In this document: piece by piece, positions 9,454 through 31,843 of the stretch
How positions within the stretch are numbered: the stretch's first letter is position 1
Layout: every line of letters begins with the position of its first letter
Assembly (NCBI GenBank): GCA_006226345.1
Contig: SBHD01000286.1
Coordinates: 1 to 36,259 of the forward strand
DNA length: 36,259 bases
Reading direction: 5' to 3'
From: Bacteroidota bacterium
GTDB taxonomy: Bacteria > Bacteroidota > Bacteroidia > Chitinophagales > Saprospiraceae
Notes under the pieces: model-generated
Databases searched by the model: none
Told to the model about the DNA's origin: nothing
Seen by the model: only the letters and a program-made list of their open reading frames with translations
Made by a program: the position numbers and the translations under genes

Positions 9454-10503
9454 TTAGTTTTTCGTCAATTTATACGTGTAAACCGCCTTGTTCAGGATCA
9501 GGTCTATGGTATAATTGCCGGCTTCAGCAATGGGAATGTCTGCTCCGCCGTACTCCAGGGAGCCATTGGCATCATCATCGCCCAGGTTGATCACCCAATC
9601 GTCGTTGGCGCGGAACTTGATCTTACCGCCTGCGGTCAGATCAAGCGTCAGCGTCAGCTTGTTGTTGACATCATCGAAAACCATATCGGTGTCGTTATCC
9701 CAACCGGTAGGCGTAGCATCTCCGATAACACCCCAACTGGTGAGTTCGTATTTGTGCGTCAGGTCGTTCAAATTGACATTCAATTTGTACATACCAGCTC
9801 CGGAGGCAGCCGTAATATCTGTACCGCCTGCATCCAGGGTGCCGTCGGCGCCGGTATCGCCATAGTTGACATCCCAGCTCGGCCCATCCGTGTACTTGAA
9901 GGTGGGCGATGCGTCATTCATGTAGATATATCCCTCAAACCGGCCGTCACTCTTGAGGGAATAAATTACTGTATTGTCATCCGCCGGGTTCCAGCCCTGG
10001 TAGTTGCCCGGTACCTGCAATTGCGGATATACGATCACGATCGTATAAGGCGTAACCTTCAGGGTGATCGGCGCAGAATATACGACATCTACCTCCGGAC
10101 TGACCTTGACCGACAGGCGCATTTCAATTTCTGATTCGGCTTCACCTGGCAGACTGAGCGTGGTGAACAGCGAAGTATTGAATTTTGAAACGGTGCCATT
10201 CCAGGAGTCTCCGGTGCTCGTACCTACGATAACCGGATTGGCAAAGTCGTTGCCGGCACGGTCGATTTCAATAGTATAAGTGGCAGCGGCCTGGAAGCCA
10301 AAATCAGCCGGCGACCAGGTTACAGTAAAGGCATTGTCCGCATTGTCTTCCAGCAGCACAATAGCATCCTGATCGACCGGACTGGTAATTACCGGAAGTT
10401 TCATGACACTGTAAACCGTGCCCGGAAAAAACTCCCCTTTCCCACAACTGAGTGCAAAAAGCACTACAGCAGTGGTCATTAGATATAATATCTTCTTAAT
10501 CAT
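9454..10503 (-). CDS. SusE/SusF-like outer-membrane glycan-binding lipoprotein
   Basis: N-terminus MIKKILYLMTTAVVLFALSCGKGE (lipobox LSCG); SusE-like Ig region KLPVITSPVDQDAIVLLEDNADNAFTVTWSPADFG; two C-terminal modules (GNYQGWNP..., GDATPTGWDND...). 19-nt gap to the SusD stop. Confidence 0.88.
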   Translation of the reverse strand: MIKKILYLMTTAVVLFALSCGKGEFFPGTVYSVMKLPVITSPVDQDAIVLLEDNADNAFTVTWSPADFGFQAAATYTIEIDRAGNDFANPVIVGTSTGDSWNGTVSKFNTSLFTTLSLPGEAESEIEMRLSVKVSPEVDVVYSAPITLKVTPYTIVIVYPQLQVPGNYQGWNPADDNTVIYSLKSDGRFEGYIYMNDASPTFKYTDGPSWDVNYGDTGADGTLDAGGTDITAASGAGMYKLNVNLNDLTHKYELTSWGVIGDATPTGWDNDTDMVFDDVNNKLTLTLDLTAGGKIKFRANDDWVINLGDDDANGSLEYGGADIPIAEAGNYTIDLILNKAVYTYKLTKN

Positions 10504-10522: not shown

Positions 10523-12718
10523 TTAATAACCAGGGTTCTGCGTCAGGTTGGGGTTCGCACCGATGTCAGAAGCCGGGATCGGGAACACATCGTAGAAAGA
10601 CGGCCGCGATTCGCCGGTTGCCGAATTCCCCTTCCAGGGCCACAGGTAGTCGGTTTCGCTGAACTTGCCAAACCGGATCAGGTCCGTACGGCGATGGCCT
10701 TCCCAGTACAGTTCACGGGCGCGCTCATCCAGAATGAAGTCGAGGTCCATGTCGTCAAGTGTGACATTGCCAGCAGTACCGGCATAAGCACGTTCCCGGA
10801 TCTTATTGACCAGTTCAAGGGCGAGGTTGATATCACCACCCGCACCACCGCGACGGATTGCCTCAGCATACATCAGGTAAGCATCCTCAATGCGGAACAT
10901 GGGGAAGTCGGTATCTACCCAGGTCAGGTTGGAGCCTGGTGTACCGTCGGAGCGCATGTTGGAGAACTTCGTGATGGCGTATCCTTCCGTGAAGATGGCT
11001 ACATCCGATATCTCCAGTGACTGACCATCAGTGTGGAACAGCGCACGGCGATCGAAGATCGGCCGCTCGATGGAGTACGTGTAATCCGGCCGGTCGATGT
11101 ACAGTTTGAACAGGTAGGTGCCAGCATCCGATATGCTAATATTATCACCATCCTGCGACAAGATGCCATCGGCACCGGTATCGCCATAGTTGATCACCCA
11201 GTCATTATTAGCGCGGAACTTGCATGCGCCGGCAGTAAGATCCAACTGGACCGTCCAGGCATCTTCTGCCGGATCATATGTCATGTCCGAATCGATATCC
11301 CAGCCGCCAGGAGTAGCATCGCCGATGAGCCCCCAGGTCGTTTTCGTCATTGTATACGTGTTGCTGTTCAGGTCGACCTTGAGCCTGTAATACCCAGCCT
11401 CGGGGGCTAAAATGTTATCGCCCCCGGCGTCCAGCGTACCATCAGCACCGGTGTCACCGAAGTTGAAATCCCAGTTCGGGCCCAGGGTGAATTTGAATTC
11501 TGTGGCCTCCGTGAAATTAACATACCCCTCGTAGGTGTTATCGTTATTGCGCGAGCTGAGTTGGTTGCCGGTTGCCGGATCCCAGCCCTGGTGACCACCT
11601 GGCACATAAATTACCGGGTAAGTAGCCGTATTGCCGTCATTCGGAGCGACCACTACATTGCCACCCGTAGCCGGGAATTTGGCAACAAAGGCGCTGGTGG
11701 TGCGGGTACCGCCCCAGCCACCGTCAAGTCCGTAAGCAGACGGGCTCATGCTACCGCCAACGGCTGCATGGCAAACGAACGTCATGCCACCCCAGGTGCG
11801 GGTATGTGTGCCGTCGAATAAAACCGGGAAGATAATGCCGTCAGCCTGGTCGTTATCCGCCATAAACATGCGGGTATATTGCGGGTCCATGGTATAACCG
11901 GCATCGATGATCTTTTTAGTGTACGTAATACAATCGGTATAGCGCTCTCGGCCGGTGTACACATCGGCATTCAGGTATAATTTGGCCAGAACCATCCAGG
12001 CTGCTGCCTGATCGGCGCGGCCGTATTCATTCTGGTGCGGAGCAACAAGATCGTTCTCGATTGCGGTCAGTTCACTTTCCACATAGTTAAAGATCTCATC
12101 AGCAGAGCCCTGGCGTGGGAAGAAGGCGCCAACGGCGTCTGCCTCCGTTACGAATGGTACATTACGGAACATATCCAGTGCATGCCAATAGCTGAGCGCG
12201 CGCAGGAAGCGGGCTTCCGCGCGATACTTAACGATCTCGGCGCGCAGTGCTGCATCAACACCACGGCTGTCGAGCTTGGCATCCGTCGTTTCCCGGATAA
12301 ATTCGTTACAAAGCGAGATCTGGTAAAAGATCCGGTTGTACATAGCAGTGACGAATTCATTTTGTGAATCCCAGTCCTGCTGTTCGTAGTCATGGATGTT
12401 ACCGTCATTCCAGGCAATAACCGCCTCATCAGTGGTCAGTTCCTGTGCTTTCCAGTATTGGCGGACATAAGTAGAGAAACCCTCGTCAATGCCGCTGATG
12501 TCGGGCTGGCCGTCGGGTCCGGACTGGCCGCTGACAGAAAGACCGGCATACAACTTGGCCAGTACCTGGCGGTAGGTGGCCGGATCGTCGTATACCGTTG
12601 CCGCCGTAGTTTCATTCGGGTTGATCGGAATGGTATCCAGGTCTTTGACGCAGGAAACCACAAAAAGGGTGACGCCCAGGAGTAAGAGCGAGCCTATTTT
12701 ATAAGATTTAAAAACCAT
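10523..12718 (-). CDS. RagB/SusD family nutrient-uptake outer-membrane lipoprotein with inserted SusE-like modules
   Basis: Lipobox region LLLLGVTLFVVSCVKD; SusD motifs (AEARFLRALSYWHALDMFRNVPFVTEAD, AAWMVLAKLYLNADVYTG, FRIEDAYLMYAEAIRRG, LDFILDERARELYWEGHRRTDLIRFGKFSETDYLWPWKG, VFPIPASDIGANPNLTQNPGY). About 190 aa of SusE-like sequence interrupts it. Confidence 0.92.
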   Translation of the reverse strand: MVFKSYKIGSLLLLGVTLFVVSCVKDLDTIPINPNETTAATVYDDPATYRQVLAKLYAGLSVSGQSGPDGQPDISGIDEGFSTYVRQYWKAQELTTDEAVIAWNDGNIHDYEQQDWDSQNEFVTAMYNRIFYQISLCNEFIRETTDAKLDSRGVDAALRAEIVKYRAEARFLRALSYWHALDMFRNVPFVTEADAVGAFFPRQGSADEIFNYVESELTAIENDLVAPHQNEYGRADQAAAWMVLAKLYLNADVYTGRERYTDCITYTKKIIDAGYTMDPQYTRMFMADNDQADGIIFPVLFDGTHTRTWGGMTFVCHAAVGGSMSPSAYGLDGGWGGTRTTSAFVAKFPATGGNVVVAPNDGNTATYPVIYVPGGHQGWDPATGNQLSSRNNDNTYEGYVNFTEATEFKFTLGPNWDFNFGDTGADGTLDAGGDNILAPEAGYYRLKVDLNSNTYTMTKTTWGLIGDATPGGWDIDSDMTYDPAEDAWTVQLDLTAGACKFRANNDWVINYGDTGADGILSQDGDNISISDAGTYLFKLYIDRPDYTYSIERPIFDRRALFHTDGQSLEISDVAIFTEGYAITKFSNMRSDGTPGSNLTWVDTDFPMFRIEDAYLMYAEAIRRGGAGGDINLALELVNKIRERAYAGTAGNVTLDDMDLDFILDERARELYWEGHRRTDLIRFGKFSETDYLWPWKGNSATGESRPSFYDVFPIPASDIGANPNLTQNPGY
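11065..11625 (-). other. In-frame insert in SusD: two tandem SusE/SusF-like modules
   Basis: VIYVPGGHQGWDP...NFGDTGADGTLDAGGDNI... and WGLIGDATPGGWDIDS...NYGDTGADGILSQDGDNI... match the downstream SusE modules VPGNYQGWNP...NYGDTGADGTLDAGGTDI... and WGVIGDATPTGWDNDT...NLGDDDANGSLEYGGADI. Boundaries approximate. Confidence 0.85.
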
Positions 12719-12737: not shown

Positions 12738-15665
12738 TTAGAAACTGGCGTTCAGGCCGAACAGGAATGTACGGGAACGCGGGTAGATATTATCATCAAT
12801 CCCATCGAACTCTTCCGGATCAAGGCCCTGGTATTTGGTTACCAACAGGGGGTTTTGGACAGAACCGAATATCCGCAGACTGCGGATAAAGCCCATTTCT
12901 GCAAAGGAATAGCCCACAGTTACATGATCCAACCGCAGGAAGGAAGCATCCTGAATGAAGTGATCGCTGAAATACCGCGGAGTGGTAAAGTCAATTTCCT
13001 TGTATACCGACTGAATGTTGCCCAGGTAACCCGTGCTGGCATACAGGCGGTTGTAGTCGGTTTGTTCGGACTGACCGTTGTTGTACAGGTAGTTGCCAAT
13101 GCTGGCGCGGCCACCCGTTGAGATATCAAAGCGGCCGAAATTGATGTTGGTATAGAATCCAATCAGCAGATCCGGTGCAGGCTTCTGGTAGAGGTACTGG
13201 TCAGCCGGAGTTATCTGTCCGTCTCCATTCCGGTCTACATACAGGCCTTCAATAGGTATACCTACTTCATCATATACCTGCTCATACACATAGAATGAAC
13301 TGGCAGGGGAGCCGACGCTATGCCGCTGGATGTAGTTACCTACACCACCCTGGATAAGGCCGACAGCAACACCCAGGTAATTGGGGTCGTCTGTTGCGGT
13401 CAGTCGGGTGATCTCATTCTTATTGGCAGTAAAGTTGGCGCCCAGTTCCCAGGTTACTTTTGAACTCTTGACCGGAACCGTATTTACCGATAACTCGATA
13501 CCCCGGTTTTCCAGGTCGCCGACGTTTGTGTTAATGAAGTTGGTCAGGTTGGTACCTGCCGGAACCGGGATAAAGTTGATCAGGTCCGTTGTCTTCCGGT
13601 AGTACACTTCCAATGCACCATAGATTCTACCATTGAACATTTCATAGTCAATACCGGCGTTGTACGTTGTCGTCTCCTCCCACTTGATATTGGAATCATA
13701 GCCGTTTGGACGAAGTGTGGTTACAAACTCGTCTCCAAACTGGTATTGAGCCGTTCCAAGACTGGCCTGGTAACGGGCCAGATACGGATAGTAATCTGTA
13801 CTAATGTCCTGCTGACCGGTTTCACCATAGCTCAGGCGCAGTTTAAGTGCATTGAGCATGCCCGAACGGCCATCCATGATCTTCCATGCAAAAGCAGCGG
13901 ATGGGAACATCCCCCAGCGGTTGTCCTCGGAGAAACGGGAGGTGCCATCGCGGCGCAACGTGAACGTGAACAGGTATTTGTCGTGAATGTTGTAATTCAA
14001 GCGGCCGAACCAGGACAGCAGGTAATATTCACGAAGATCCTGCGTGGTGACGCCATCGGGATTGGCTGAGTTGACAGTAGTAGTCTTATCGTCAAAGTGG
14101 AAATGCTGCCAGGAGTAACCGGCCATTGCATCCATCGAGGTGTTGCCAAAATCCTTGACATAGTTCATGTAATACTCCAGGAGTTTGTTCGTCTTCACCT
14201 GGGAGTAGGAACGATTCAAACCATTGGTGGTATACGCACCCGAGTATTCCGGCGGCTCGATCACGCTGCCTTCACCATCCGCCTTGTCATAGGCAACGTT
14301 CAGGTTTGCCCGCAGTTCCGGCAGGAAGCCAAAGCGGTAATCGATCTGCGCATTGGTAATGATCCGGTTGATATCCGAATTGTCGTCGTGCAGATTCAAC
14401 TGCGCGATGGGGTTGTCGGGCGGCAGCGGGTTGGGCGTACCGTCGGGATTGGTATACGTAAAATATCCGCCATAAGGGCTGTTGGAATCCAGGATCGGTT
14501 GCGTCGGGTCAAAGAAAACAGCTGAACCGATGGCGCCACGATTGGCAAACTGGTTCTTGGTCTTCATCCCTTTGGCATTCAGGTTGATCTGAAGCCGGTT
14601 GTCCATGAAGCTCGGGTTAAGACTCAGGGCACCGGTCAAACGGTTGAAATTGTCCGTTTTCAGGATGCCGTCCCGGTCGGTGTAGCCAAGGGATACCCGG
14701 TACGGAACAACGCCCACACCGCCAGATACAGCCACGTTGTGGTCCATACCGAAGGCGGTTTGGTAGATCTCATCCTGCCAATTAGTGGTTGCTGTACCCA
14801 GCAGGTCGCGAGCAGGGTGACCATCCGCAAAACGGGTGTTGATCAGGTCCCTGAACTCATCGGCAGACAATACTTCAACTTCATTTGCCCGCTTGGCAAA
14901 GGAGAAGTTGGCAGTGTAGTCAACGCCAATTTTCCGCTTCAGTGATCCTTTTTTAGTGGTGATCAGGATTACACCGTTAGAAGCACGTGATCCATAAATG
15001 GCTGTGGCTGAGGCATCTTTAAGCACCGTAAAGGTGGCGATGTCATTCGGGTTGATCACGTTGAGCGCGCTACGGCCGCCGGCGCTGGATTCGTTGCCTA
15101 CGGGCACACCGTCAATTACGATAAGCGGATCGTTAGAGGCACTGAGGGACGAACCGCCGCGGATTCGGATGGTGCCGCCGCCGCCCGGGTCAGAGTTGGG
15201 CGTGACCTGTACCCCGGCGATCTTACCGACGATCAGTTCCTGTGGAGAGTTGAGGGCGCCTTTGTTGAAGTCTTCTTCATCGACGGCCAGGATTGCGCCG
15301 GTGGCATCCTCCTTTTTTACAATACCGTAACCGATGACCACGGTCTCCTGAAGTGCCACACCCGGCATCATCGTGAAGTCGCGCACCGAAACGCCACCGA
15401 ACTCAACGGTAATGGTTTCGTAACCCGTGTATTTGACTTCCAGTTGGGTCGTCCCTTCCGGCACTTCAAATGAATACCGGCCTTCAAAGTCAGTAATGGC
15501 ACCGGCCGTTGTACCTACGGCGCGAACGCTGGCACCGATAAGTGGTTCACCGTTTTCGCCATCTCTGACAACACCGCTGACCTGCCTTTGGGCATAGGCA
15601 AAACCGCTGCCAAAGAGCACCAGGCAAACCACGGCAATGATTGGTTTAAGTTTAAAATACTTCAT
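12738..15665 (-). CDS. SusC/RagA family TonB-linked outer-membrane protein
   Basis: Carboxypeptidase-D-like N-terminal domain (VSGVVRDGENGEPLIGASVRAVGTTAGAITDFEGRYSFEVPEG); plug PNSDPGGGGTIRIRGGSSLSASNDPLIVIDGVPV; TATAIYGSRASNGVILITTKKG-type motif (ASATAIYGSRASNGVILITTKKG); C-terminal YPRSRTFLFGLNASF. Confidence 0.96.
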   Translation of the reverse strand: MKYFKLKPIIAVVCLVLFGSGFAYAQRQVSGVVRDGENGEPLIGASVRAVGTTAGAITDFEGRYSFEVPEGTTQLEVKYTGYETITVEFGGVSVRDFTMMPGVALQETVVIGYGIVKKEDATGAILAVDEEDFNKGALNSPQELIVGKIAGVQVTPNSDPGGGGTIRIRGGSSLSASNDPLIVIDGVPVGNESSAGGRSALNVINPNDIATFTVLKDASATAIYGSRASNGVILITTKKGSLKRKIGVDYTANFSFAKRANEVEVLSADEFRDLINTRFADGHPARDLLGTATTNWQDEIYQTAFGMDHNVAVSGGVGVVPYRVSLGYTDRDGILKTDNFNRLTGALSLNPSFMDNRLQINLNAKGMKTKNQFANRGAIGSAVFFDPTQPILDSNSPYGGYFTYTNPDGTPNPLPPDNPIAQLNLHDDNSDINRIITNAQIDYRFGFLPELRANLNVAYDKADGEGSVIEPPEYSGAYTTNGLNRSYSQVKTNKLLEYYMNYVKDFGNTSMDAMAGYSWQHFHFDDKTTTVNSANPDGVTTQDLREYYLLSWFGRLNYNIHDKYLFTFTLRRDGTSRFSEDNRWGMFPSAAFAWKIMDGRSGMLNALKLRLSYGETGQQDISTDYYPYLARYQASLGTAQYQFGDEFVTTLRPNGYDSNIKWEETTTYNAGIDYEMFNGRIYGALEVYYRKTTDLINFIPVPAGTNLTNFINTNVGDLENRGIELSVNTVPVKSSKVTWELGANFTANKNEITRLTATDDPNYLGVAVGLIQGGVGNYIQRHSVGSPASSFYVYEQVYDEVGIPIEGLYVDRNGDGQITPADQYLYQKPAPDLLIGFYTNINFGRFDISTGGRASIGNYLYNNGQSEQTDYNRLYASTGYLGNIQSVYKEIDFTTPRYFSDHFIQDASFLRLDHVTVGYSFAEMGFIRSLRIFGSVQNPLLVTKYQGLDPEEFDGIDDNIYPRSRTFLFGLNASF

Positions 15666-19097: not shown

Positions 19098-19213
19098 GCG
19101 AATGCTTTTTTGTTCATAGATTCGTGGCCTGCAAATGCCGGTTGTCAAATATAGAGCTCCTGCTCCCTTTTACCGGCTCCTGGTTTACAGAATGGCTAAT
19201 TCATTTCCATACC

Positions 19214-22200
19214 ATGAAACATATTGCTCCCTTTTTATCTACCGTACTTATTCTTGTTCTTTCCCTTCAGTCGCAGGGGGGGCATGCTCAGGAAGTCCGG
19301 ACCCATCTAAATATCGACACCGGCTGGAAATTCAGTTTTGGACATGCCCAGGATCCGGCCCGGGACTTTAATTTTGGAATCCCTACGATCTTCTCCAAGT
19401 CCGGTGGTGTCGCCGGAACAGCAATTGATCCTAAATACAACGATAGTCTTTGGCGGGATCTGGATTTGCCCCATGACTGGGCAGTCGAGCTCCCTTTTGT
19501 CGAAGATCCGGCATTCAATGTCATGGCGCATGGCTACAAGCCGGTAGGGGGTAATTACCCTGCCACCAGTATCGGGTGGTACCGCAAACGCTTCACTGTA
19601 GAGGCGACCGGGCCGGGACAACGCTATCAGCTGCAGTTTGACGGTGTTTTCCGGGATGCGGAATTCTGGATCAATGGTTTTTACCTGGGAAACAACAAGA
19701 GTGGATATATCGGTGTAACCTATGACATTACGGATTTTTTGCGCTACGGAAGCGAAAATGTACTGGTCGTCCGGGTAGATGCCACCCAATATGAAGGCTG
19801 GTTTTATGAAGGTGCCGGAATATACAGGCATGTTTGGCTCAACAGCTATAACCCGGTGCACATTGCCCATGATGGGATTTTTACCTATTCACAGGTCAAT
19901 GGAAAACAGGCTGTAGTTATAGTAGAAACAAGTGTTGAAAACCAGGGGAATGCGTCGGCAGATGCTACCGTTACCGTGCTGTTGAAAGACCGGGCGGGTA
20001 ATGTAGTCGTTCGTTCCAAACCGCAGTCTGTTACTATAGGCATGGATGACAGTCAACTGGTCCGGTCGGAACTCGTGCTGGAAACCCCCAGACTTTGGGA
20101 ACTCCAAGACCCGTATCTGTACCGGGTACAAGTGGATGTGGCCGTTGGAGGGCGATTGCAGGACCGGCAGGTGCAACGTTTCGGGATCCGGACCGTTGAG
20201 ATCCGGACCAACGGCGTTTTCCTGAACGGCAAACACCTTAAGTTACAAGGCACCAATTGCCACCAGGACCATGCCGGTGTGGGGAGCGCCTTGCCGGATT
20301 ATCTGCAGTATTATCGGATCCGGCTGCTGAAGAACCTGGGTGTCAATGCATACCGGACCAGTCATAATGCACCTACTCCCGAATTGCTGGACGCCTGCGA
20401 TAGCCTGGGTATGCTGGTTATGGATGAGCAGCGTCTGCTGAACAGCAGTCCCGAATATATGGATCAGTTTGAGCGGCTGCTGAAACGCGACCGCAGCCGG
20501 ACCTGTGTGTTTATGTGGTGTATTGGCAATGAGGAAGGCTGGATCCATACCACTGAAACCGGTAAACGTATCGCCCAAACATTCATCCGGAAACAACAGG
20601 CCCTTGATCCCACCCGCACCTGTACGTATGCTGCCGACGTGCCCAATGTATATAAAGGTGTTAATGAGGTAATCCCGGTACGGAGCTTTAACTACCGGCA
20701 ATTTGCCGTGGCTGATTATCACCGGGACCACCCGGAGCAACCTATTATCGGTACGGAAATGGGTAGCACCGTCACATCCAGGGGTATGTATGAAAAAGAC
20801 AGCATCCGGGGATATGTACCGGATCAGGATATTACAGCACCCTGGTGGGCCAGTACCGCAGAAGCCTGGTGGACATTAGCTGCTGAAAATGACTTTTGGC
20901 TCGGTGGTTTCGTCTGGACCGGGTTTGACTACCGGGGCGAGCCCACACCGTTCCAATGGCCGAACATCAATTCGCACTTCGGCATTATGGATATGTGCGG
21001 CTTCCCGAAGAATCTTTACTATTACTATCAGTCCTGGTGGACGGACAAGGATGTGCTCCACATTTCGCCACACTGGAACTGGCGGGATAAAGGCCGAGAA
21101 CCGATTGAAGTGTGGGTCGACACCAATGCGGATTCTGTTGAATTATTCCTGAATGATAAAAGCTTGGGAAGCAAGTTGATGTCTCGGAATCGCCACCTGA
21201 AATGGACCGTAGAATATGCACCTGGTACGCTGAAGGCCGTAGCTTACAAACAGGGCCGGGTGTTTTCCAAAAAAATAGAAACGACCGGTCCGCCGGCGGA
21301 GATCGTACTGACGCCGTATAAAACAACGATGCTGGCAGATGGGAAAGACGTTACGGTAGTAAATGTCTCGGTCTTCGACCGGGAGGGCAGGGAAGTGCCG
21401 AATGCCAATAACCTGATCCGGTTTTCCATTGAAGGAAACGGGAAGATCATCGGCGTTGGTAACGGGGATCCGTCCTGTCATGAACCGGATATCTGTGCGG
21501 ATGGTGCCTGGCAGCGCAGCCTATTCAATGGAAAATGCCAGGTGCTGATACAGGCCGGTACCAAGCCGGATATGATCAAATTCGAGGCGACTGCTCCAAA
21601 CCTGTGGAAGGGATCCACCGATATTCAGACCGTTCCTCCCGTCAGTGTAGGCGTGATTACAGCGGATGATGCCTACCAGCTGACCCGGGATCAGGCAAAG
21701 CCCCGCACGGTGGACAGGATGATCGGCGCGGACATTTCGTTTTTGCCTCAACTGGAGGCCAGGGGGATCAAATTCAGGGAGAACGGGGAGGAGAAGGATG
21801 CCATCGAACTATTGCGCGAACACGGGTTTAACTACGTTCGGCTGCGTATTTTCCACAATCCGGCTTCGGAAAACGGCTATTCGCCTCAAGACGGATTTTG
21901 TGATCTGGAGCATACGCTGCAGATGGCTAAACGCGTGAAAGCTGCGGGGATGAAACTCTTACTGGATTTTCATTACAGCGACTATTGGGCTGATCCCGGC
22001 AAGCAGTATAAACCCAAGGCGTGGGAGGGTATGAAATTCCCGGCCCTGAAAAAGGCGCTTTACGACTATACATACGAGGTGGTCAGCAAACTGAAGGAGC
22101 AGGGGACTACACCCGATATGGTCCAGATTGGAAATGAGATCAATCACGGCATCGTTTGGCCCGAGGGGAATGTAAGCCACCTGGACAGTCTCGCCCAATT

Positions 22201-22624
22201 GCTCAACGCCGGTACCAAAGCCGTAAAGGATGTCGATCCTTCGGTCGTAATGATGTTGCACGTAGCTTTGGGCGGGCAGAATGACGAGTCGGTTTTCTTC
22301 ATTGACAACATGCTCAAACGCGGGGTGCATTTCGATGTGATCGGCGAATCGTACTATCCAAAATGGCACGGCACCCTGGACGACCTGCGTGACAACCTGC
22401 ACGACCTCGTCCGGAGATATAATAAGGATGTGATCGTAGTGGAATACTCTGCCCGCAAGGAGGAGGTGCACAAGATCACTTTTAGCCTGCCTGGCGGAAA
22501 AGGAAAGGGGACTTGTATCTGGGAACCGCTGAATACCTGGGAAGCCCTGTTTGACCGGGAAGGGAATTCAAATGATTACCTGCAATGGTATGACCGGTTC
22601 AAAGCAGAATATCTGCAAGACTAG
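19214..22624 (+). CDS. GH2 (beta-galactosidase-like) - GH53 (endo-beta-1,4-galactanase-like) fusion enzyme
   Basis: ATG 19214 gives signal peptide MKHIAPFLSTVLILVLSLQSQGGHAQ. GH2: WRDLDLPHDWAVE, GWYRKRFTV, LQGTNCHQDHAGVG, MWCIGNEEGW (acid/base Glu), IIGTEMGST (nucleophile Glu). GH53: GADISFLPQLEARGIKF, NYVRLRIFHNP, KLLLDFHYSDYWADPGKQYKPKAW, VQIGNEINHGIVWPEG, DVIGESYYPKWHGTLDDL, VVEYS. Confidence 0.93.
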   Translation: MKHIAPFLSTVLILVLSLQSQGGHAQEVRTHLNIDTGWKFSFGHAQDPARDFNFGIPTIFSKSGGVAGTAIDPKYNDSLWRDLDLPHDWAVELPFVEDPAFNVMAHGYKPVGGNYPATSIGWYRKRFTVEATGPGQRYQLQFDGVFRDAEFWINGFYLGNNKSGYIGVTYDITDFLRYGSENVLVVRVDATQYEGWFYEGAGIYRHVWLNSYNPVHIAHDGIFTYSQVNGKQAVVIVETSVENQGNASADATVTVLLKDRAGNVVVRSKPQSVTIGMDDSQLVRSELVLETPRLWELQDPYLYRVQVDVAVGGRLQDRQVQRFGIRTVEIRTNGVFLNGKHLKLQGTNCHQDHAGVGSALPDYLQYYRIRLLKNLGVNAYRTSHNAPTPELLDACDSLGMLVMDEQRLLNSSPEYMDQFERLLKRDRSRTCVFMWCIGNEEGWIHTTETGKRIAQTFIRKQQALDPTRTCTYAADVPNVYKGVNEVIPVRSFNYRQFAVADYHRDHPEQPIIGTEMGSTVTSRGMYEKDSIRGYVPDQDITAPWWASTAEAWWTLAAENDFWLGGFVWTGFDYRGEPTPFQWPNINSHFGIMDMCGFPKNLYYYYQSWWTDKDVLHISPHWNWRDKGREPIEVWVDTNADSVELFLNDKSLGSKLMSRNRHLKWTVEYAPGTLKAVAYKQGRVFSKKIETTGPPAEIVLTPYKTTMLADGKDVTVVNVSVFDREGREVPNANNLIRFSIEGNGKIIGVGNGDPSCHEPDICADGAWQRSLFNGKCQVLIQAGTKPDMIKFEATAPNLWKGSTDIQTVPPVSVGVITADDAYQLTRDQAKPRTVDRMIGADISFLPQLEARGIKFRENGEEKDAIELLREHGFNYVRLRIFHNPASENGYSPQDGFCDLEHTLQMAKRVKAAGMKLLLDFHYSDYWADPGKQYKPKAWEGMKFPALKKALYDYTYEVVSKLKEQGTTPDMVQIGNEINHGIVWPEGNVSHLDSLAQLLNAGTKAVKDVDPSVVMMLHVALGGQNDESVFFIDNMLKRGVHFDVIGESYYPKWHGTLDDLRDNLHDLVRRYNKDVIVVEYSARKEEVHKITFSLPGGKGKGTCIWEPLNTWEALFDREGNSNDYLQWYDRFKAEYLQD

Positions 22625-26600: not shown

Positions 26601-28217
26601 TCAGATCTCTTCGCCATACAGGAGCCATTTGGCCAGTTTGCCGTCAGGTCCCTGCACGAGGATGATGTTGGGGTACACGCGGATCTGACCGCCAGTAGTT
26701 TCGATCGTCCGGTTGGGGGCAGGGTAGGCGGCTTCAATCTCTGCGGTAGAAGCGCCTATACTGATATGCTTAAGCGTTTCACCTTTATAATCCGGGCTTG
26801 TAACAAGGAAATAGACCAACTGACCGCTGGCGGCATTTTCCATGATATAAAACCTGGAATTAGGGCCAGGGTGCAAGTTGTTGTAGGAACGGATATTATC
26901 GGTCACTTCGATCTCACTGCCCGGATCGGGCTCCGGAATATTGGAACTATCAATAAGAGAAAGGCCGTCAATGGTCTCGTTACCGGCAGTCGGCATGAGT
27001 GTAAGTGCGGGTTTGGCCGGCTGGATAGGTTCGCCGTTGAGGACTTTCAGGTTGTGAGCAGCCAACAGACTACCTTGTTCGGATGCTTTTGTGAAGGCTT
27101 CACGGGCTTTGGCGGTATTCCCTCCCCGGTCAGCCAAAATACCTTCCAGTACCCGGGCGTCTCGCACTGTTTTGGCGTATCCCGTCATTGAAGCCGCCTT
27201 TCCGGCATCGGACTGCGCTTTGGTCAGATCGCCAAGCAGGGCATAAGCACACCCCCGGTTGAGCCATGCCGGCGCATATTCCGGATCGAGGATAATGGCT
27301 GTATCAAAATGGGCGACCGCTTCCTTCAACATGCGGATGCGAAGTTGTTGGAAGTCTGAGATTGAACGGGTACCGGAGGAACCGAGGTCGAGTTCCAGCG
27401 GGTAGTGGTATTTAACTTCGGGTTCGGTAGGCCGGAAATAGTTGAGGGCGCCTAATACGGAAATGACCCCTGCATTATTGTAGGTTGCCGTGCTTTTAAA
27501 GTCTTGAAGCACATACGAGTAGTAGGCGTGTGCGTCTTCATACTTATTGAGTGCCATCAGCAGGTTTCCCATGTCAAACACTTCCGTTAGCTTCCGGAGC
27601 CGCTCACCCAGCTGTTTGTTATGCTCCCGGCGTTCTGCCAGGGTAGGGTAGCCCTCCAGTTTGTCCGGAAGCTCGTAGGCTTTGTAAAGCGCCGATATCA
27701 GTTCCGGACCCTTATCAAAAAGGTTAAAGCCTGCAGTATAGGCCAGGAACCCGCCGAGATAATCGGCCTGGTTCTCATATTCAGTCCCGGTTTGCGATGT
27801 ATTTCCGGTGTTACCCATCCGGTGCTGCAGGTCGTGCTTTTCGTAATAATGGATCAATTCATGTCCGAGCAGGGTCGCCAGCGCTGCGTCGGCCATTTCT
27901 TGATAAGAAACGGCTACATCAAATGCTTTTTCTTCCAGCCCGATCTCGCCGGTTGCTGGATTGGTCCAGGCACCGTACCGGGCATCGCTGGACATAACAA
28001 ATTTGGGGGCCGGTAATCTGCTGTCACCTTTGGTTTTAAGGAGTTGATCAAATATCCGGGATGCCCGCTCGTATTTGGTTTTATCCGGATTTGCCGTAGT
28101 TGCCGGAGCAGTGGTGCCAGTTTTTTTCAACAGGGCAAATACTGCTCCTGAGTTGGATTGCGCCGCAAGCGGGGCCATAATAATAAGGGTCAAAAGGGTC
28201 AAAAGCACTTGTTTCAT
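26601..28217 (-). CDS. Exported M48-like zinc metallopeptidase with TPR-like C-terminal region
   Basis: ATG 28217 gives signal peptide MKQVLLTLLTLIIMAPLAAQ (track start 28313 overlaps the upstream gene). LLGHELIHYYEKHD (HExxH) followed by TEYENQADYLGGFLAYTAG (ENQAD third-ligand region). TPR-like AVAHFDTAIILDPEYAPAWLNRGCAYALLGDLTKAQSDAGKAA. Confidence 0.8.
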   Translation of the reverse strand: MKQVLLTLLTLIIMAPLAAQSNSGAVFALLKKTGTTAPATTANPDKTKYERASRIFDQLLKTKGDSRLPAPKFVMSSDARYGAWTNPATGEIGLEEKAFDVAVSYQEMADAALATLLGHELIHYYEKHDLQHRMGNTGNTSQTGTEYENQADYLGGFLAYTAGFNLFDKGPELISALYKAYELPDKLEGYPTLAERREHNKQLGERLRKLTEVFDMGNLLMALNKYEDAHAYYSYVLQDFKSTATYNNAGVISVLGALNYFRPTEPEVKYHYPLELDLGSSGTRSISDFQQLRIRMLKEAVAHFDTAIILDPEYAPAWLNRGCAYALLGDLTKAQSDAGKAASMTGYAKTVRDARVLEGILADRGGNTAKAREAFTKASEQGSLLAAHNLKVLNGEPIQPAKPALTLMPTAGNETIDGLSLIDSSNIPEPDPGSEIEVTDNIRSYNNLHPGPNSRFYIMENAASGQLVYFLVTSPDYKGETLKHISIGASTAEIEAAYPAPNRTIETTGGQIRVYPNIILVQGPDGKLAKWLLYGEEI

Positions 28218-28276
28218 GTATATAAGGTTGAATGCAGGAATAGGCGAAGTTACACACAGTGGACGATCTGTACTGG

Positions 28277-31200
28277 TTAATGCGAATTTGTTTGTTGCTG
28301 AACTATAGGCCATACCTTTTCCATGATAGCGGCAGGAATACCTTCAATGTTTGTCTTGTCTGCGGTAAGTTCAAAAGTGGCCAGCGATTCTTTTCCCTTG
28401 ATCAGACCACCCGAAATTTGCACTTCGTTTCCGGATACGACATAATTTCCCCGGATGGCATAACCGTTTTCATAGCCGGTCGCCCTGGAATAAATGATCG
28501 GCGCCTGTGCGGGTTTTACGGTTAGCTTCTGAAAATAGGCATCCATGACATTGCCGAGGTCCAGGGGGTCATTGAATGTAACTTTATCATTGAGGGCGCT
28601 TTTGATAAATACCGGTTTCTCCTCTCCCACCGGAATATCGACCGAACTGGATTTTAACCCTATATCAAAGCTGGCGCCGGTAGTGGGGAAAGCCAGGACC
28701 GGTATCTGTACTCCGTTGATGCCTTTGGCCAGTTCAGGTACTTTATTTCGAGAATATTGGAAAAGGGTCATTACATCCACACTGTTGTCATCTCCCAGAG
28801 CTAGGCCATTCATGCCCTGGAGCAGGCTGTATGTGAGCAGCCCGTGCCGGAACATAGTGGTCTCATAACTCACCATATCTGCTGCACTGCCGGTGATAAT
28901 GAACATGCCGGTGCGGTCTTTCATCCGATCCAGCGCCCGTACCTGAGCGGAATTCAGGTCGCGACTTCCACTCGCCAGATCATCCACCAGTTTGCCGGAG
29001 TTGCAGGCATCCAGGATCAATACCTGTTTCAGGGCGGGGATGGCTTTGACCCAGTCGGTGATCTCTGTCGCGGATATGGCGAAATTCTCGCGTATCGCAT
29101 CGTCCTGCAGGTTTTCACTGACAATGTCTTTGGTCAGGTAATAAAACTGGGATTTTTCTGCGGTCCCGTAATTCACGCCGTGACCGGCAAAGTAGATCAG
29201 CAGGACATCCTGTGGCTGGGCCTCTTCAGCGACCTCTTCAAAAGCCTTTCGGATGGTGGTTTTGCTCGATACATCCACCCGGGTGCTGTCCTCGCTATCG
29301 GTATTCAGCAACATAATGTTTACCCGGTTCTCAAATACCCCCGGTGCAAGGAGTCGGAGCGCTGTGCTCATGGAGGCAGCATCGTGGTCGGCGAATTTTA
29401 ATTTGAGTTTTTCACTGGCATAGTTAGACGTGCCGATGACAATTGCGTGAAAACTGATCTTGCGGCGGTTGAGCAGGCTGCTGCGTCGGGTGGTTCCGGG
29501 CTCGGCTCCTTTGGACGTTGGTGCCTTATATTCCAACTCCAACTCCAGGGCCTGACTTTTTAGCCAACCAGCGTCGTTGTATACCCGCAGCGCCAGTTTG
29601 TTCGTCGTATCTGGCAGGCAATACCGGTAAAAATCATCCAGCGGGAGGTTCAGGGCAAGATTCCGGTTGGGGTTGGCGTCTTCCTTGACTTCCTTCCCGT
29701 TTACAAATACGCTGAGTTTCCCGATGCCTCCATTTCGCGGAGTCAGTTTTATTTCCACCTGGGTTTTGTCCGCGTTGAGTGCAGCCACCATTTCCGGATA
29801 CAGTGCCACATCCTTGAAGGTTTGGACCGAACGGGCCGGATCCTTGCTCAGGCCCAGGATCTTGGCCAGCAGGCCAGGCTCATAATACCGCTCTTTGAGC
29901 TGCTCCAATTCGATCACTTCGAGACCGACCACGAAATACATGAGGTTCATAGCTCCGGGGGAAGCGTCAAACATGCCGGACGGCGATGTCACTACCCAAT
30001 CATCGGCATCCACGGCCATCAGCGTGGCCAGTTCCTTTCCGGTGTTACTGTCCCAAAGTTTGGCGGTATTGTCCAGGCTGCCAGTCAGTACAAACTTCCC
30101 ATCTGGTGAAAATTTCGCCGACTGGATATCGTTTTCATGTCCTGTCAGGATGTGGAACACCTTACCATTCATATCCCATAAACGGGCTGTATGGTCAAAA
30201 CTGCTGGTCAGGACCCGGCCGTTGCCGTTTGGAGAAAATGCAACAGCACTGATCCCCTTAGTGTGTCCTTCAAAGGTATGCAGGAGACTACCGTCCAGGC
30301 TCCAGGTGCGGGCAGTGTTATCGTCGCTTCCTGTTAATATGAATTTGCCATCCGGGGCGAATACGGCGGAGGTCACCCAGCCCTCATGCCCGGTGAACGA
30401 AACAGACATCTGCCCATCCAGACTCCAAAGTCTGGCTTCTGTACCTCCGGCGGTGAGGATTTGTTTTCCACCGGGAGCAAAGGAAACGCCGTTTATTACG
30501 GATTCGTCATCGGTAAGTGTTTGAAGTTCCTTGCCACTGGTGTCCCATATTTTTGCTTCAAGACCGGTAGCTGTCAGGAGCTGTTTACTTCCTTTTCCAG
30601 GTGAAAAGGCAACACTGGTAACGACATCGGGATTGTCCAACGTAAGTAGTGCCTTTCCATCCAAATCCCAAAGTCTGGCGGTATAATCATCGCCTCCGGT
30701 TAGTACCTGCATAGGCGAATCATAAGGAGAAAAGCAAACAGACCGGACCCAGCCGACGTGTCCGGTATACAATATTACCATGTTCTGTTCGGGGGCCCAG
30801 CGGCGCACGGTTCCATCCACGCTTCCGGTCAGCAATTGTTTCCCGCCATCGGCATAGGAAAAGTCAACCGCGCTGATACCCTGTGCATGTCCTTTGAAGA
30901 TTTGCAGCATGTGCCCTTTCAGGTCCCAAAGGATAGCTGTGCCATCCTTGCTCCCGGTCACAAATGATTTTCCGTTGGGGGCAAATGCGACCGTTATCCT
31001 GGAAGGCGTGGTCTTGTGGCCACGGTATTCCTGAAGTTGATTGCCCTTCAGATCCCACAAGCGGGCGCTCAGGTCATGACTTCCGGTCAGGATCTGAGCG
31101 CCGTCTGGTGAGAAGACAGCCATGTTCACCTGGTCCGTATGTCCTGAAATGACCTGTAGTATCTCACCGCTCAGGCTCCACAGGATCGCTGTTTTATCGT

Positions 31201-31843
31201 CGCTGCAGGTCAAAACGGACTGGCCATCAGGAGCGAACACGCCGCCTTTAACCTTGCCTTTGTGTCCGGTCAGGGTTTGTAACACGGTTCCGTTCAGATC
31301 CCAGATAATAGCGGTGCTGTCCTTGCTGGCAGTCAGGATCCGCTGGCTGTCTGGTGAAAATGCCACGGTGTTGATATCCTTCTCATGCCCTTTGAATTTT
31401 TGCACTTCCTGCCCATCCAGGCTCCATAGGATAGCTTTATTATCCCGTCCGCCGGTCAGGATATATTTACCGTCTGGTGAAAAGGCGACGGACTCAATGT
31501 ACTTCTTATGTCCTTCAAATCGCTGTAAGATATTGCCGTTCAGGTCCCACAGAATGGCAATTGCGTCCTGGTCGGCCGTCACGATCTTTTTTCCGTCGGG
31601 CGAAAAGGCGACGGCGGCTACTTCCTTTGTATGTCCTTTGAAGGTTCGTATCTCGTGGCCTTTCAGGTCCCAGAGTTTCGCTGTAAAATCGGTACTGCCG
31701 GTCAGTATGTATTTACCGTCGGGTGAAATGGCTATTGCTTCAATCCCTTTGGTATGCCCGATCGGCGTTACCAGTCGCGGGGTTTGGGCACAAAGTTGAG
31801 TCAGGCTCAGGATAAGAAATAGCAGGAACGTTGATTTTTTCAT
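28277..31843 (-). CDS. Exported WD40-repeat (14 units) caspase-family (C14) protease
   Basis: Signal peptide MKKSTFLLFLILSLTQLCAQ; 14 GH...SPDGK.LTGS.D.TA.LWDL units; caspase fold FHAIVIGTSNYASEKLKLKFADHDAASM, DVLLIYFAGHGVNYG (His), QVLILDACNSGKLVDDL (Cys), GMFIITGSAADMVSYETTMFRHGLLTYSLLQGM. Confidence 0.93.
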   Translation of the reverse strand: MKKSTFLLFLILSLTQLCAQTPRLVTPIGHTKGIEAIAISPDGKYILTGSTDFTAKLWDLKGHEIRTFKGHTKEVAAVAFSPDGKKIVTADQDAIAILWDLNGNILQRFEGHKKYIESVAFSPDGKYILTGGRDNKAILWSLDGQEVQKFKGHEKDINTVAFSPDSQRILTASKDSTAIIWDLNGTVLQTLTGHKGKVKGGVFAPDGQSVLTCSDDKTAILWSLSGEILQVISGHTDQVNMAVFSPDGAQILTGSHDLSARLWDLKGNQLQEYRGHKTTPSRITVAFAPNGKSFVTGSKDGTAILWDLKGHMLQIFKGHAQGISAVDFSYADGGKQLLTGSVDGTVRRWAPEQNMVILYTGHVGWVRSVCFSPYDSPMQVLTGGDDYTARLWDLDGKALLTLDNPDVVTSVAFSPGKGSKQLLTATGLEAKIWDTSGKELQTLTDDESVINGVSFAPGGKQILTAGGTEARLWSLDGQMSVSFTGHEGWVTSAVFAPDGKFILTGSDDNTARTWSLDGSLLHTFEGHTKGISAVAFSPNGNGRVLTSSFDHTARLWDMNGKVFHILTGHENDIQSAKFSPDGKFVLTGSLDNTAKLWDSNTGKELATLMAVDADDWVVTSPSGMFDASPGAMNLMYFVVGLEVIELEQLKERYYEPGLLAKILGLSKDPARSVQTFKDVALYPEMVAALNADKTQVEIKLTPRNGGIGKLSVFVNGKEVKEDANPNRNLALNLPLDDFYRYCLPDTTNKLALRVYNDAGWLKSQALELELEYKAPTSKGAEPGTTRRSSLLNRRKISFHAIVIGTSNYASEKLKLKFADHDAASMSTALRLLAPGVFENRVNIMLLNTDSEDSTRVDVSSKTTIRKAFEEVAEEAQPQDVLLIYFAGHGVNYGTAEKSQFYYLTKDIVSENLQDDAIRENFAISATEITDWVKAIPALKQVLILDACNSGKLVDDLASGSRDLNSAQVRALDRMKDRTGMFIITGSAADMVSYETTMFRHGLLTYSLLQGMNGLALGDDNSVDVMTLFQYSRNKVPELAKGINGVQIPVLAFPTTGASFDIGLKSSSVDIPVGEEKPVFIKSALNDKVTFNDPLDLGNVMDAYFQKLTVKPAQAPIIYSRATGYENGYAIRGNYVVSGNEVQISGGLIKGKESLATFELTADKTNIEGIPAAIMEKVWPIVQQQTNSH
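30025..31780 (-). repeat. Coding region of 14 WD40 repeats
   Basis: Hand count from IGHTKGIEAIAISPDGKYILTGSTDFTAKLWDLKG to TGHENDIQSAKFSPDGKFVLTGSLDNTAKLWDSNTG. Units 10 and 11 are degenerate (DNPDVVTS..., TDDESVING...). Confidence 0.85.

Follow-up and report, generated by a model that had tools for sequence, protein, structure and literature searches.

The SusD lipoprotein encoded in the window (the whole 36,259-nucleotide stretch of Saprospiraceae DNA analysed here) carries two tandem X25/SusE-type modules inside its own fold. Our preferred reading, to which we assign a probability of about 0.75, is that it belongs to a SusC-SusD-SusE system for the uptake of alpha-glucan (starch, glycogen or maltodextrin) whose lid gained this tandem once, deep in Bacteroidota. 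The insert, its fold, kinship and age, and its conserved site residues are drawn from sequence and structure prediction, and from them we infer the roles in binding and transport. By existing descriptions, the SusD lid is one capping domain, opening and closing over SusC, and accessory binding is left to other lipoproteins. The two-module lid is a widespread and old variant of the starch SusD and apparently undescribed, the open literature searched having yielded no account of a SusD with X25 or embedded SusE modules.

Architecture of the SusD protein and its insert

The susD gene (10523-12718, minus strand), identified from its open reading frame and from Pfam, NCBIfam and structure matches, encodes a 731-aa lipoprotein. 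Upstream of it lies susC (12738-15665, minus strand), a TonB-linked outer-membrane transporter matching TIGR04056, and adjacent to it is susE (9454-10503, minus strand), whose 349-aa lipoprotein product combines an N-terminal PF14292 domain with two modules homologous, in order, to those of the SusD insert. Elsewhere in the window and outside the present finding, a 1188-aa protein containing 12 or more WD40 repeats (28277-31843, minus strand) is encoded beside a TPR protein (26601-28313).

The SusD fold is present in both terminal parts of the protein. The N-terminal part (residues 1-354; 11657-12718, minus strand) contains the lipobox cysteine Cys23, invariant across 62 sequences, and the starch-site residues D78, R86, W103, W309 and W335; the C-terminal part (residues 554-731; 10523-11059, minus strand) is SusD_RagB. 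Between them sits the insert (residues 355-553; 11060-11656, minus strand), at 199 aa slightly longer than the roughly 190 aa of the first-pass annotation. In the alignment, residues 42-348 and 554-731 match residues 4-304 and 317-499 of 3jys, and where 3jys has about 12 residues the window protein has about 205. The insertion point falls about 20 residues past the equivalent of W320 of the Bacteroides thetaiotaomicron starch SusD (BtSusD) and lies between the starch-site segment and the C-terminal lobe. Pfam places SusD-like_3 at 100-249, SusF_SusE (PF16411) at 464-551 and SusD_RagB at 577-731. The initial description of a SusD fold interrupted by two SusE-like modules was thus borne out by the split alignment, Pfam and the fold search described below. 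An assembly or annotation chimera is ruled out, because the identical architecture recurs in orthologues from dozens of independent genomes.

The SusD core is of the starch type, with alpha-glucan binding predicted from its sequence. The NCBIfam SusD model matches with E=7.5e-130; this model, NF033071, scores 433.8 bits over the split matches, below its cut-off of 725 bits, and we therefore use the label starch-type SusD and not that of the named SusD of B. thetaiotaomicron. The nearest solved structures are 3jys and BtSusD (3ck7-9), which are also the best matches of the full-length predicted model (TM by target 0.91 for 3jys and 0.84 for the starch SusD). We take the starch-contact residues of BtSusD to be D73, R81, W98, N101, Y296 and W320. 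Four of these, D73, R81, W98 and W320, are identical in the window protein (D78, R86, W103, W335), Y296 is replaced by W309, and the equivalent of N101 falls within the motif AWNDGN, in which the exact register is unsure. The starch SusD (BT3701; PDB 3ck7-3ckc) and 3jys share the lid fold throughout the core (TM by target 0.84-0.91), and BT3701 likewise has its SusC partner upstream, but neither protein has inserted modules.

An AlphaFold model of the insert, built with 50 homologous inserts, has a mean pLDDT of 97.1 and consists of a pair of all-beta modules, each a beta-sandwich of about 95 aa. With approximate boundaries, the first (M1) spans residues 374-459 (11341-11599, minus strand) and includes W379, K409, W416 and N419; the second (M2) spans residues 461-553 (11060-11338, minus strand) and includes W473, R502, N504, W507 and N510. 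PF16411 matches M2 with 53.3 bits against a cut-off of 27.5, and X25_BaPul_like (PF22058) matches M1 over residues 374-433, under the family cut-off. A phmmer search of the insert against the PDB gave weak matches only, and it was the fold search that resolved its identity. Three chains alone reached E<0.001 in the PDB: the X25 tandem of Ruminococcus bromii Sca5 (7rpy; the best match, E 4.8e-07), SusF, and SusE with maltoheptaose. All three are starch binders. By family, the modules are X25/SusE-type starch-binding modules, for which binding itself is predicted.

The tandem X25 modules of R. bromii bind through four tryptophans, two per module, which form one extended site, and this two-tryptophan pattern is important in tandem X25s (PMC9112005). 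Each module of the insert also has two conserved tryptophans (W379/W416 and W473/W507), with K409 and R502 close by; the Trp/Lys/Arg pattern is the same in the window SusE, and the tryptophan spacing is like that of Sca5. From this pattern, W379, W416, W473, W507, K409 and R502 are the predicted contact residues.

The same building blocks are known from other settings. SusE and SusF of B. thetaiotaomicron (4fch, 4fem, 4fe9) share the module fold of the insert, and the window SusE follows their plan of an N-terminal domain and two modules; they are, however, free-standing lipoproteins, whereas in the window the same tandem also lies inside SusD. Sca5/Sas20 of R. bromii (7rpy) likewise has a tandem of X25 sandwiches, each bearing two tryptophans, but in Firmicute scaffoldin or dockerin proteins and not in a transporter lid (PMC9112005). 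SusG with its CBM58 is another case of a starch-binding module inside the fold of a Sus protein (PMC11267923), although it is an amylase with a single module of a different family. Among the alpha-glucan SusDs of marine Flavobacteriia, Beidler et al. describe a 'looped' group, one member of which is retarded by pullulan and glycogen and whose loci commonly carry SusE (PMC11093988). These resemble the window SusD in their alpha-glucan type and in the SusE and GH13 genes near them, but the feature described for them is a loop of about 17 aa close to the site, and the main text of that paper describes no inserted domains (PMC11093988).

Origin and spread of the tandem

The insert runs collinear with the C-terminal module pair of the neighbouring SusE, as had been noted at the outset, and 96 of 186 residues (52%) are identical; at the DNA level the similarity has decayed, with a third-codon identity of 42%. 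This likeness, with its equal module order, is what suggested copying between the two neighbouring genes, and a recent event of this kind within the window lineage would explain it simply. For the window gene the wider comparison rejects that idea. Of 66 SusE proteins compared with the insert, 24 resemble it more closely than the window's own, which ranks 25th; identities with other SusD inserts go up to 69%. Forcing the insert and its own SusE together costs 98 log-likelihood units and is rejected by the AU test (p-AU 1e-5). SusDs from the same genus and from other families have this insert in the identical position. Two outcomes named beforehand as grounds against local copying have largely been observed: the modules group with the inserts of distant SusDs, and the insert recurs across many genera.

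A tree of 50 inserts and 45 SusE tandems divides into these two groups at a single branch (SH-aLRT 90); the SusD-insert and SusE states need one change on this tree against a shuffled mean of 32. The split holds across Saprospiraceae, Prolixibacteraceae, Lentimicrobiaceae and others, and all inserts in the trees save one lie on one side. This arrangement argues that the insertion is ancient, probably arising from one duplication of the whole tandem. In the module tree, M1 groups with the first SusE module and M2 with the second (SH-aLRT 96), which argues that the tandem moved as one unit, most likely out of the SusE lineage or a source common to both. The tree of inserts and SusE tandems is unrooted and gives no direction of transfer; SusE as donor and SusD as recipient is the more natural assumption.

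The exception is locus L156, from the Bacteroidales MAG S147_9. Its insert lies inside the SusE clade as sister to its own adjacent SusE (bootstrap/SH-aLRT 100/99), with which it shares 64% identity as against at most 53% with any other. L156 is a local SusE-to-SusD replacement; overwriting by the neighbour thus occurs, but not at the window.

Lids with the insert are widespread. Of 149 genomes sampled across the family, about 41 encode the long SusD and about 38 its insert-free counterpart, and a collection of named genomes adds at least 80 further loci, almost all with a two-module insert, in Saprospiraceae, Lewinella, Neolewinella, Portibacter, Prolixibacteraceae, Draconibacterium, Lentimicrobiaceae and others. 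The inserts come in discrete lengths, 2-17, 98-118 and about 200-218 aa; two, of 147 and 158 aa, fall outside these classes. On a SusD core tree of 156 sequences, the states of zero, one and two modules need 12 changes, and three insertless SusDs (L037, L038, L041) are nested in a two-module clade, which reads as loss. Later lineages lost one or both modules, leaving inserts of about 0, 100 or 205 aa. One-module inserts occur in two other families, f25 (L098, L100) and f44 (L099, L101-L104, L106-L108). The remaining module is M1-like in f44, for instance in L099; in f25, that of L098 reads as M2-like (WGLVGDATANGW...KFRYNHDW), though its position in the module tree, which is poorly resolved, is on the M1 side. 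The sequences therefore suggest independent trimming to one module in the two families. At several insertless loci (L043, L044, L046, L048, L049, L051, L071) SusE is often much longer, about 530-640 aa with 3-5 modules, as if SusD and SusE divided a set of modules between them.

Substrate and function of the inserted modules

The glycan first proposed for this locus was galactan, and the gene neighbourhood offers some reason for that choice. A GH2-GH53 fusion is encoded 3.5 kb beyond SusC (19124-22624, plus strand; Pfam), and no GH13 gene was found on the window contig, so that the system may have a second substrate. Among 99 two-module loci, 18 have GH53 genes in their flanks, which were fetched at differing lengths, and in Portibacter (L169) the GH53 gene (11115-12557) immediately follows susD. 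In the same flanks, however, GH13 genes are twice as frequent (38 of 99), and both same-genus genomes have GH53 on a contig other than that of susD. The SusD core is starch-type and retains the binding residues, which makes galactan binding unlikely, and the fold matches of the insert are starch binders. That the system targets galactan or a mixed galactose-containing glycan bound by the modules is accordingly a highly improbable reading; alpha-glucan is the better-supported substrate, with binding predicted. The recurrence of GH53 beside starch-type SusCD loci is unexpected company for starch-type proteins. At a further locus (L045, genome G126), a 1143-aa open reading frame 76% identical to the GH53 part of the window fusion lies near an insertless SusD.

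The predicted sugar sites vary with the presence of SusE. Of the 75 inserts with a SusE nearby, 65 have two intact module sites, as against only 4 of the 43 for which none was found, the other 39 lacking at least one complete site; the contrast reflects few independent changes (five in SusE, two in the motif; sign test p=1), falls mostly within one clade and is not statistically secure, and some calls of an absent SusE are detection failures, as in L140, where the SusE open frame overlaps susD beyond the search window. The window SusE, like the insert, keeps both sites. This pattern in the sequences argues, from cases that are not statistically independent, that the insert and SusE cooperate and do not substitute for each other. 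The insert as a replacement for SusE is not supported, since the site residues are mostly lost where SusE is missing. Mainly in loci of that kind, proteins of about 590-910 aa with 4-8 related X25/SusE-like modules are encoded divergently from susC (L169:4126-5904, minus strand; L057-L063, L152, L174, L179, L183-L186, L189-L193). The L169 protein, the one scanned, has a type IX sorting tail. In the SusE-less clade, this multi-module protein, on the opposite strand upstream of susC, may take over binding.

Retention of a full-length insert by a lineage without an adjacent SusE, despite the lost site residues in 39 of 43 cases, suggests that something besides sugar binding may maintain it there. 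The insert could be mainly structural, or a docking arm that joins SusC, SusD, SusE or an amylase, with starch binding secondary. In utilisomes, accessory lipoproteins sit on SusC close to SusD (PMC7618045). Against this, the window insert retains all four tryptophans together with K409 and R502, residues conserved at 87-98% where SusE is present, and we regard a chiefly structural or docking role as unlikely here.

Under the preferred reading of an alpha-glucan uptake system, the two modules would form a four-tryptophan clamp, by analogy with the tandem X25 of R. bromii, that holds alpha-glucan helices above the SusD site. Such a clamp could raise the affinity of the lid for long or insoluble alpha-glucan, and chains would reach SusC from the lid as well as from SusE. 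Against this reading, BtSusE is reported, by Foley et al. in 2018, to be able to act independently of its own starch binding, so that homologous modules need not act by binding. After what was most likely a single acquisition of the complete tandem deep in Bacteroidota, different lineages would have kept it, reduced it to one module or lost it.

A lid with a putative binding arm of its own

A broader proposal, which we advance tentatively and at somewhat less than even odds, is that these proteins form an ancient and widespread lid class with a vertically kept X25 clamp, in which the lid itself, besides SusE/SusF, would take hold of long starch chains and feed them into SusC. On this view the arm would have come in as one piece, later losing single modules and, in at least one lineage, being replaced with SusE sequence; its sugar site would have been lost where SusE was lost. 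If this is true, the lid and SusE would constitute a co-evolving two-clamp device. There is a large class of starch-type lids with a two-module arm of about 200 aa, which lid closure, the placement of SusE and the delivery of chains must all accommodate. The natural versions with zero, one and two modules provide ready comparisons for the role of accessory binding in uptake.
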